Shown: positions 2,384-39,277 of the stretch, in pieces
Numbering within the stretch: position 1 is the first letter of the stretch
How the letters are laid out: the number at the start of each line of letters is the position of its first letter
Source: Bradyrhizobium sp. 164
Lineage (GTDB): Bacteria; Pseudomonadota; Alphaproteobacteria; Rhizobiales; Xanthobacteraceae
NCBI RefSeq assembly: GCF_023073715.1
Contig: NZ_JADPKA010000004.1
Coordinates: 1-64,000, forward strand
DNA: 64,000 bases
Direction: 5' to 3'
The notes under the pieces: model-generated
What the model was told of the DNA's origin: nothing
What the model saw: the letters and a program-made list of their open reading frames with translations, nothing else
Database searches by the model: none
Position numbers and translations under genes: made by a program

Positions 2384-2809
2384 TTATTCGTGTTCATTGA
2401 TAGCGATTGTCTTAACGATCCTCTCCGGTTCAGGCCGGGCCAGATCGACCGACAACAGCCCGTTCTTCAGATCCGCACCCAGCACCAGCATCCCCTCCGC
2501 CAGCACGAAGGTGCGCTGGAAGTGGCGGGCGGCGATCCCGCGATGGATGTATTGCCGGGTCTTGTCGTCCTGCTGCCGCCCGCGGATCACGAGCTGGTTT
2601 TCCTCAATAGTTACATCGAGTTGGTCGCGGGTGAAGCCGGCGACCGCCAGCGTGATGCGCAAACGCTCGGGCTGGCCGTCCGACCGGTCGCACCTCTCGA
2701 TATTGTAGGGAGGATAACCGTCGGCACCTTTGACGACCCGATCGAGCACGCGCTCGATCTCGTCGAAGCCCAGCAGGAAGGGACTGGAGAGCGTTGGAAC
2801 ACGAGACAT
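2384..2809 (-). CDS. Hsp20/IbpA-type small heat-shock protein
   Basis: The 141-residue protein has a short N-terminal arm (with FLLGFDEIERVLDRV), an alpha-crystallin domain from about 35 to 125 (YPPYNIER, then LVIRGRQQDD) and a short C-terminal tail. It is an ATP-independent holdase that keeps denatured proteins refoldable. Bradyrhizobium carries several such genes (class A, IbpA-like). The mRNA leader immediately upstream carries a ROSE-type thermometer hairpin, so translation is probably released by heat. DUF1150 follows in the same unit. Confidence 0.93.
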   Translation of the reverse strand: MSRVPTLSSPFLLGFDEIERVLDRVVKGADGYPPYNIERCDRSDGQPERLRITLAVAGFTRDQLDVTIEENQLVIRGRQQDDKTRQYIHRGIAARHFQRTFVLAEGMLVLGADLKNGLLSVDLARPEPERIVKTIAINEHE

Positions 2810-2920
2810 AGTTTACAAAGTCCTCGCAGAAGCGACTTTGGTGTGTCGGAGCCCGCAAGCGGCACCCCTTGGTCAGCAATATGGGCATATCCCCGTGTGG
2901 GTTCAAGCAGGTAGCAGGAG
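2810..2920 (-). promoter_or_regulatory. ROSE-type RNA thermometer in the hsp20 leader
   Basis: On the transcript strand the last hairpin occupies 2839 to 2817: the arm AAAGUC-GCU pairs with AGGACUUU around UCUG-CG. It contains the ROSE signature UYGCU (here UCGCU) pairing with the Shine-Dalgarno AGGA (2824-2821) and leaving one G opposite nothing, as in characterised ROSE elements. The ATG follows 11 nt after AGGA. Further weak hairpins lie upstream to about 2920; their limits are uncertain. Confidence 0.78.
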
Positions 2921-2980
2921 CCCTGCACAGGTGGCATTCCCGCATGTGATGCGCTTTGCTTCGCGCCGGGCGTTTCCACA

Positions 2981-3030
2981 TCGTCATGGCCGGGGCATGG
3001 CCGTCCGTAGGACGGCGTCGCTACCGCTCG
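2981..3030. repeat. Short palindromic intergenic element
   Basis: This stretch holds GTCATGGCCGGGGCATGGCCGT followed by the hairpin CCGTCC-gta-GGACGG. This type of sequence is familiar as a scattered intergenic element in Bradyrhizobium genomes. The rest of 2921-3120 shows no gene. Confidence 0.45.
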
Positions 3031-37308: not shown

Positions 37309-37767
37309 TTAGCGGCCGGTCGAGCCGAAGCCGCCGGCGCCGCGATCGGTCGTCGACAAGGTCGCCACGGGAACCAGCGCGGCCTGCACCACGGGCGCGA
37401 TCACCATCTGTGCGATGCGCTCGCCGCGCTTGATCACGAAGGGCGCCTGGCCATGATTGATCAGGATCACCTTGATCTCGCCGCGATAGTCCGCGTCGAT
37501 CGTGCCGGGCGAGTTCAGCACGGTGACGCCGTGCTTGGCCGCAAGCCCCGAGCGCGGCCGCACCTGCGCCTCGTGCCCGGCCGGCAAGGCGATCGCGAGG
37601 CCCGTCGGTACCGGCGCATATTGACCGGGCGCGAGCGTCAAGGGCTCGCTGTCCGGAACCGCAGCCATCAGGTCGAGGCCGGCGGCCTCGGCGGTCTGAT
37701 AGGCGGGCAGCGGCAGGCCATCGGCATGCGCGAGGCGTTGCAGTTCGACCGTGACTTTCGTGCTCAA
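37309..37767 (-). CDS. dut: dUTP diphosphatase
   Basis: The 152-residue trimeric dUTPase keeps all five motifs: [10 protein letters not shown] (I), [14 protein letters not shown] (II), [17 protein letters not shown] (III), [10 protein letters not shown] (IV) and [10 protein letters not shown] (V). It removes dUTP and supplies dUMP for thymidylate. The apparent start is a TTG overlapping the coaBC stop by four bases (TTGA), which fits the family N-terminus [11 protein letters not shown]. It is the last gene of ubiE-ubiB-coaBC-dut. Confidence 0.95.
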
Positions 37768-39218
37768 GATGCCGGCTCCCGGGATTTGTCGGTCACGGTC
37801 CTTGCGACATGCGCGACCAGTTCGATGGCGACCTGTTCCTTGGTCATCACCGGCCAGGAATCAACTGCAAACTCGCCGTCCTTCGCGCCATTCTTGCGGC
37901 TGATCAGGTGCACGGTGTTGCGATCGCCGCCCATCACGCCGGTGGCCGGCGAGACGTCGTTGGCGACGATCCAGTCGCAACCCTTGCGGGCAAGTTTTGA
38001 TTTGGCGTTGTCGATGAGATGCTCGGTCTCGGCGGCAAAGCCGATCACCAGCGGCGGGCGCTTGTCGGCCAGCTTGGCGATGGTGGCGAGAATGTCGGGG
38101 TTTTCGACGAGCTGAAGCGGTGGCATGCCGGCCGAGGTCTTCTTCAGCTTCTGTTCGCCCTCGTTGGCGACGCGCCAGTCGGCGACCGCGGCGGCGAAGA
38201 TCGCGACGTCGACGGGAAGCGCCGCCTGCACCTGCTCCAGCATCTGCCGTGCCGATTCCACATGCTTCACCGTCACGCCCTGGGGATCGTCGAGGTCGAC
38301 CGGACCGCTGACCAAGATCACCTCGGCGCCCGCGGCCTGCGCGGCGGCGGCAATGGCAAAGCCCTGCTTGCCGGAGGAGCGGTTGGCGATGTAGCGCACC
38401 GGATCGATCGGCTCATGCGTGGGACCTGCGGTGATGAGCACGCGCTTGCCGGCGAGCGGGCGCGGCACCGGCGGCCGCAGCAGCCGCTCGGCGGCATTGG
38501 CGATCTCGATGGCTTCCGACATGCGGCCGATGCCAGCCTCGCCGGCTTCCGCCATCTCGCCGGAATTGGGTCCGATCAACACCGCACCGTCGCGCTGAAG
38601 CTGCGCGACGTTGCGGCGTGTCGCCGCGTTGTTCCACATCAGCGGATTCATCGCCGGCGCCAGCAACACCTTGCGATTGGTGGCGAGCAGGATGGCGCTG
38701 GCGAGATCATCGGCATGACCGTTTGCCAGCTTGGCCAGGAGATCGGCGGTTGCCGGCGCCACCACGATCAGGTCGCAGTCGCGCGCCAGCCGTATATGGC
38801 CGGCGTCGAACTCGCTCTGCGGGTCGAACAGGTCGGTGTAGACGCGCTCATGCGACAGCGCGCTCACCGCCAGCGGCGTGACGAATTGCTGCGCCGCCTT
38901 GGTCAGCACGCAGCGAACCTCGACGCGGCGTTCCTTCAGCCGGCGGATCAGGTCGAGCGATTTATAGGCCGCGATACCGCCGCCGATGATCAGGGTGACG
39001 CTGGCTTCGGGAACGGCGCTGGTACGTTGTTGTGTCGGAGCTGAGGAGGATGCCGCAGGTGGGACCGCAAACGGCGTCAGCGGCTCCTCGCGGCCCTCGA
39101 TCAGCTCCCGCAGGATGACCCGGACCTCTTCCTCGACCGACCTGCGGTTCTTGGCCGAGCGCAGCCGGAGATAGGTTTTGACGGCATCGTCGAGCTTGCG
39201 GATGGTCAGGCTTGCCAT
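37764..39218 (-). CDS. coaBC: CoaBC with an N-terminal FitA/VapB-like ribbon-helix-helix domain
   Basis: The 484-residue protein has the usual CoaC flavoprotein decarboxylase (about 75-245, [27 protein letters not shown]) and CoaB ligase (about 255-475, [29 protein letters not shown]), making 4'-phosphopantetheine for CoA. Ahead of it lie ~45 extra residues, [20 protein letters not shown] then [19 protein letters not shown]. These match the ribbon-helix-helix fold of FitA/VapB antitoxins, followed by a Pro/Ala/Ser linker. No toxin gene is nearby. The ATG at 39218 follows GGAGGG; upstream dyads could be its operator. Confidence 0.9.
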
Positions 39219-39277
39219 GACGCCCTCCAACACGGAATGATCGCGATGCTATCATTCGTGTGATTGCAGTGCAATCA
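39219..39277 (-). promoter_or_regulatory. coaBC promoter-operator with two inverted repeats
   Basis: Between ubiB and coaBC lie TGATTGC-agt-GCAATCA (39261-39277) and GAATGAT-N9-ATCATTC (39235-39257). On the coaBC strand a candidate promoter reads TTGCAC-N17-TAGCAT, so one dyad covers the -35 and the other the -10. The octamer TGATAGCA (39254-39247) resembles, from memory, the FitA operator half-site of Neisseria. The site also overlaps the ubiB stop. Confidence 0.5.

Follow-up and report, generated by a model that had tools for sequence, protein, structure and literature searches.

The stretch of DNA analysed here (64 kb, referred to below as the window) carries a coaBC gene on the minus strand, downstream of ubiE and ubiB, the latter ending at 39275, and upstream of dut. 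The names ubiE, ubiB and dut are presumed ones, given from resemblance and from a first-pass annotation of the same DNA. The start codon of dut overlaps the stop codon of coaBC and the two genes are therefore probably co-transcribed. The coding features are as follows.

37309..37767, minus strand: open reading frame presumed to be dut, with a TTG start that overlaps the coaBC stop
37764..39218, minus strand: RHH-CoaBC fusion gene, 484 amino acids, ATG at 39218, from the open reading frame, the Pfam families DFP, Flavoprotein and FitA-like_RHH, and TIGR00521
39093..39218, minus strand: FitA-like ribbon-helix-helix (RHH) domain, residues 1-42, from PF22513
39003..39092, minus strand: linker rich in Pro, Ala and Ser, residues 43-72, from the sequence; model confidence is low in this part
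37767..39002, minus strand: CoaC and CoaB catalytic part, from TIGR00521 and motifs

The first-pass annotation had read the N-terminus as a FitA/VapB-type RHH sequence joined by a Pro/Ala/Ser linker to a complete CoaBC, and both the domains and the linker were borne out. Residues 2-38 belong to the Pfam family PF22513 (FitA-like_RHH; 51.5 bits with a cut-off of 27, E = 9.7e-14) and residues 74-471 to TIGR00521 (CoaBC; 388.6 bits with an equivalog cut-off of 219.7). The CoaBC motifs AMNPLMW, GHIRLA and KLKK were all found in the protein. No in-frame ATG, GTG or TTG is present in the window sequence from the RHH domain to the CoaC core, which indicates that the fusion is genuine.

When residues 1-70 were modelled, helices were assigned to residues 11-24 and 28-41 within a block with a pLDDT of 87-89, and no beta strand was assigned in this monomer model; the two modelled helices agree with the RHH fold of the FitA-like family. 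The top Foldseek matches of the model were mostly RHH proteins (CopG with a TM score of 0.90 by target length) and all had E values of 1.3 or higher, as may be expected for a domain this short. A profile built from 41 fused N-domains matched the FitA structure 2h1o in the Protein Data Bank (E = 3e-8). The single-sequence model of the full-length protein had a pLDDT of 39.7, too low for use. In 17 comparisons between the window and near relatives, dN/dS was lowest in the enzyme core (0.12), higher in the RHH domain (0.16) and highest in the linker (0.28), and by this measure the RHH domain is under purifying selection.

No PIN gene was found near coaBC, as had been noted before, and the only PIN match of the genome is located on another contig. 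The adjacent PIN toxin gene that belongs to a VapBC or FitAB module is thus absent from the window.

Operator-like boxes at the predicted promoter

Upstream of the start codon the following features were identified.

39261..39277, no strand assigned: predicted operator dyad 1, TGATTGCA-N-TGCAATCA, two 8-bp boxes, the sole exact match in the genome and kept upstream of fused genes
39238..39254, no strand assigned: predicted operator dyad 2, TGATAGCA-N-CGCGATCA, matching dyad 1 with one mismatch
39269..39274, minus strand: candidate -35 TTGCAC, from our own scoring, 17-bp spacing
39246..39254, minus strand: candidate extended -10 TGATAGCAT, inferred from our own scoring

Two dyads over the promoter had been reported in the first-pass annotation and both are present, one of them in a revised form. 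Dyad 1 (TGATTGC-N3-GCAATCA) is a perfect 17-bp dyad that overlaps the candidate -35 and the stop codon of ubiB, the TGA of which (39275-39277) makes up the first three bases of the dyad. The other had been described as GAATGAT-N9-ATCATTC (39235-39257), but is better read as dyad 2 (TGATAGC-N3-GCgATCA), which is one mismatch from the perfect 17-bp dyad and overlaps the candidate extended -10; its perfect form, TGATAGCATCGCTATCA, occurs in several Bradyrhizobium relatives (e.g. L001-L006 and L025). What is repeated is the 8-bp sequence TGATWGCA, which can point either way, and adjacent boxes are 9 bp apart; the window has four of these boxes, including an imperfect one, arranged as two dyads 23 bp apart. 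Judged against the 64 kb of the window by itself, the pair is no more than mildly unusual: two dyad matches with at most two mismatches were found when 0.54 were expected, and 9 of 100 shuffles reached two.

The top-scoring predicted promoter, TTGCAC-N17-TAGCAT with a TG before the -10, is overlapped by three exact 7-bp half-boxes, and the same arrangement of candidate -35 and -10 recurs in eight of the ten loci L001-L010 (not in L007 and L008). In loci of the Mesorhizobium group the box TGCTATCA doubles as the predicted extended -10. Overall a box overlaps the top-scoring predicted promoter in 43/53 fused loci, by a scoring that we devised and that may be biased towards the boxes; a stricter general promoter scan did not report the candidate promoter.

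The fusion was found in 52 of 80 relatives fetched by protein, which were the best 80 of 591 and hence a selected set; one more (L036) carries the fusion and is cut by a contig end, and 27 are without it. Together with the window this gave 53 fused loci, where L028, the frame of which is broken after the RHH domain, was counted as fused, and L071, which bears a different (XRE) fusion, as unfused. Fused genes were present in records named Bradyrhizobium, Rhodopseudomonas, Afipia, Nitrobacter, Pseudolabrys and Xanthobacteraceae, and also in records named Mesorhizobium, Phyllobacterium, Nitratireductor and Zhengella. They were not found in the fetched records of Rhizobium, Ensifer, Shinella, Microvirga, Methylobacterium and Hyphomicrobium, nor in the Mesorhizobium locus L065. 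Judged by where in the CoaBC frame the RHH match lies, at least 16 of 249 genomes drawn from the order carry the fusion, and in 120 genomes of the phylum an RHH inside a CoaBC-sized frame was seen, among the matches listed, only within this order. A 1.5-Mb genome (L164, G148) keeps the fusion with a diverged RHH domain and has the box TGCTATCA before the gene.

Within 150 nt upstream, 33/53 fused loci have the exact 17-bp dyad, 41/53 have it with at most one mismatch and 49/53 have an exact 8-bp box, while dinucleotide-preserving shuffling (200 sets) gave a box in 1.4 of the 53 loci on average and in five at most. No exact box was found in the 300 nt before the core in any of 24 unfused loci. 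When 134 loci, many of them close relatives, were searched on both strands over 520 nt before the core, an exact TGATWGCA was found in 63 of 67 fused and one of 67 unfused loci, so that the boxes track the fusion. The first-pass annotation had named, as evidence against its proposal, relatives in which the fusion persists but the dyads are lost. This was seen in part: 20/53 fused loci are without the exact dyad and 12/53 without even a one-mismatch dyad, but only 4/67 are without an exact box. These four are L019, L023, L029 and L213, the last of which has boxes of a near-variant TGAC type; L024 has no exact box within 150 nt. On the CoaBC tree there were only three usable independent pairs and all agreed (sign test, p = 0.25), a number of pairs for which significance is out of reach.

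In place of DNA operators, the dyads could be hairpins in the leader RNA, acting in attenuation or translational control, and TGATTGCACTGCAATCA, as read from the sequence, could make a short stem near the start codon. This is very improbable, however, given that the boxes overlap the predicted promoter and that in three loci of the Phyllobacterium group (L035, L040 and L043) and in L032 they form direct repeats with a 9-bp spacing; boxes in this arrangement are unable to base-pair with one another, which argues against a shared function as RNA hairpins.

In the 7.44-Mb genome of the window the exact dyad is present only at this locus. Five sites have at most one mismatch, two of them being the dyads described here, and a reversed control pattern gave one. 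The other three are located in or beside other genes and were considered as a possible regulon beyond coaBC; in view of the control they were taken as chance matches. The exact dyad was found at 15 sites in 28 other genomes; 13 of the 18 with the fusion have it, and none of the ten without. A script placed 14 of the 15 sites just upstream of the RHH-coaBC start, and the fifteenth, in the genome of L056, was assigned by the same dyad in the upstream DNA of that locus. With exact dyads confined to its own locus in the genomes searched, the fused protein looks like a dedicated autoregulator. One of the three further one-mismatch sites in the genome of the window (L086, 1501-1517) is located about 50 bp before a likely gshB, inside the preceding frame, and is probably due to chance.

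Toxin-antitoxin modules and other domains at the coaBC locus

In at least 7 of the 249 genomes, an unfused coaBC is directly preceded on the same strand by a FitA-like RHH gene and then a PIN gene. By group codes the seven genomes represent three families, and the PIN domain was confirmed by Pfam in all seven. Such RHH-PIN modules are located between ubiB and coaBC in the unfused relatives L162, L163 and L187-L191. The frames of the toxin and coaBC overlap in at least L163 and L187, and in some of these loci coaBC is thus apparently the last gene of a toxin-antitoxin operon.

Boxes of the form TGAYWGCA, a pattern broadened from TGATWGCA after the fact, were found within 110 nt before six of the seven antitoxin genes, five of the seven having two boxes 9 bp apart; in 1000 shuffles the mean was 0.28, at most two genes had a box and no pairs occurred. 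The coaBC-adjacent antitoxin gene without a box is that of L163, and L189 has a perfect dyad, TGATTGCATTGCAATCA, identical to that of RHH-coaBC genes. At stand-alone RHH loci away from coaBC a box was found in 3/19. Given that boxes precede both free and fused RHH genes here, the box accompanies RHH domains of this type at the coaBC position. The operator of gonococcal FitAB may have half-sites of the TGATAGCA kind; a literature search found no paper that joins FitA to such a sequence, and the similarity is not counted as evidence.

These data bear on the idea that a different regulator binds the boxes and that the RHH domain either aids CoaBC assembly or is a leftover. RHH domains do also dimerise, as in PutA (PMC5293562). 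Still, the boxes are absent at 66/67 unfused loci and of the same type before the stand-alone antitoxin genes, the only FitA-like RHH match in the genome of the window is RHH-CoaBC itself, and the purifying selection on the domain speaks against a leftover, so we consider this explanation unlikely.

That RHH-CoaBC still acts as an antitoxin, guarding against incoming PIN toxins, might be suggested by the relationship of the domain to FitA and by the PIN partners at the same place in relatives. FitA-type antitoxins, however, hold the toxin by a C-terminal tail, and in RHH-CoaBC the position of this tail is taken by the faster-changing linker; with no PIN gene nearby, we give such a role hardly any credence.

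The RHH-PIN modules at coaBC are the likely source of the fused RHH domain, as judged from the sequences. The one unfused locus with a box, L206 (G164), has a perfect dyad before a shortened PIN gene, no RHH was found there, and it looks like a decayed toxin-antitoxin module at the coaBC locus. A simple order of events, in which an upstream module became fused by deletion, was considered and is plausible, but in the CoaBC tree L162 falls among the fused loci of the Mesorhizobium group, so that some modules may postdate a fusion. A single clade of all fused genes was rejected (p-AU = 3e-6); one gain followed by later losses is still compatible with the data.

Residue 3 of the RHH domain was compared with the fourth base of the box. 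Serine goes with TGAT boxes (fused MAS forms, L187 and L189) and threonine with TGAC boxes (L190, L191, L140 and the fused L213), the combination being mixed in L188 and L163 having no box. Arginine occurs with a TGAC box in L162, and asparagine in the fused L019 and L029, where an exact box is absent. This covariation may be a hint of recognition, seen in few independent cases.

A separate fusion was found in L071 (Hyphomicrobiaceae), where an XRE-type helix-turn-helix domain (Pfam HTH_3) is fused N-terminally to CoaBC (2770-3000). The whole XRE extension was present in seven more genomes among 397 of the order, giving eight loci (L071 and L167-L173). A dyad devised after the fact, ATTACAT-N3-ATGTAAT, fits four of the eight loci at -25 relative to the start with no more than one mismatch; the other four have 3, 3, 3 and 4 mismatches, with the best fit of L071 elsewhere. 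A fit to within one mismatch was not obtained in any of 4000 shuffled copies. Together with its own dyad, the fusion suggests that an unrelated DNA-binding domain may have been put to the same use on CoaBC. No further DNA-binding fusion was seen in 20 loci with long frames, given that all 19 with a readable core have an ATG, GTG or TTG at most about 15 codons ahead of it (the nearest being GTG in L218 and TTG in L226, L228 and L229).

Probable self-repression of coaBC

We regard it as very probable that the FitA-type RHH domain makes CoaBC the repressor of its own operon, the predicted promoter of which is covered by the boxes. Self-repression of coaBC (and dut), as the first-pass annotation had proposed, is strongly supported by comparison, in that the boxes track the fusion, the exact dyads are confined to this locus in the genomes searched and the boxes before antitoxin genes are alike. 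Two RHH arms would pair and each pair would bind one 8-bp box. As the four boxes cover the candidate -35 and extended -10, bound CoaBC would exclude RNA polymerase and so block transcription of coaBC-dut once the amount of enzyme suffices; concentration-dependent self-repression would be the simplest account. Mycobacterial CoaBC is a dodecamer (PMC7794376), and a particle of this kind could carry as many as six RHH pairs and hold several boxes at the same time. DNA binding, repression, RHH pairing and multivalency are all steps that we infer.

The nearest precedent is PutA, a flavoenzyme with an N-terminal RHH domain that acts as an autogenous repressor (PMC5293562). RHH-CoaBC is most likely a PutA-like autogenous repressor made from a CoA enzyme and antitoxin parts, since here too a DNA-binding domain is fused to an enzyme and conserved operator-like sites, recognised by sequence, are located at its own predicted promoter. 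In contrast to PutA, it is a different enzyme of a biosynthetic pathway, its RHH belongs to the FitA family, it has no known ligand switch, and relatives have toxin-antitoxin modules at the same place.

Beyond self-repression, affinity for DNA could be set by CoA, acyl-CoA or the state of FMN, making the protein a metabolite-sensing repressor; the first-pass annotation had suggested modulation by CoA, FMN or pantothenate intermediates. CoaB of M. tuberculosis is inhibited by CoA and acyl-CoAs (PMC7794376), which makes a CoA signal possible, and in trifunctional PutA, proline and the flavin redox state govern the change from repressor to membrane enzyme and back (PMC5293562). On the other hand, the DNA affinity of PutA falls only 2-fold upon flavin reduction according to the same source. 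We hold ligand control of this kind to be a tentative possibility, with the odds somewhat against it.

RHH-CoaBC shares with FitAB and VapBC the RHH family PF22513 and a type of box that also precedes RHH-PIN genes; FitAB is reported to contact six of the eight nucleotides of each repeat half (PMC6118392). It differs from them in that no PIN toxin is near in the window and that the RHH domain is followed by a linker and an enzyme. From other CoaBC proteins (TIGR00521), with which it shares the complete bifunctional enzyme, it differs by the extra N-terminal DNA-binding domain. BirA and NadR are metabolic enzymes that double as repressors of genes of their own pathway, with helix-turn-helix domains and other targets. 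For RHH-CoaBC, by contrast, one candidate target locus was found in the searches made.

A literature search, mostly of open-access papers, found no account of a CoaBC that is fused to an RHH or antitoxin domain or that is autoregulating. No paper on coaBC with Bradyrhizobium was found, and those retrieved for coaBC with toxin-antitoxin were on other subjects, going by their listing. Little has been described of how bacteria control CoA biosynthesis at the level of transcription. In a broad survey of toxin-antitoxin systems the words 'phosphopantothen' and 'Dfp' are absent from the main text (PMC2701414), and others have discussed antitoxins being co-opted as regulators (PMC8987985).

The present case looks like a part of a toxin-antitoxin system that has turned into a housekeeping regulator, and the relatives display the free module, the broken module, the fusion and the bare gene all at one place, with a parallel case from an unrelated (XRE) DNA-binding domain. 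A self-repressing CoA enzyme would make the control of CoA biosynthesis directly accessible to experiments, given the short boxes, the relatives without the domain and the stand-alone antitoxins that are available for comparison. It is possible, at odds that we put somewhat below even, that coaBC has repeatedly come under its own control by way of borrowed domains (RHH in perhaps two to three lineages and XRE separately), each with a single target and each reading the CoA status at the active site. If this is true, the supply of CoA would be governed by a feedback loop derived from a selfish element that was tamed in place between ubiB and coaBC.
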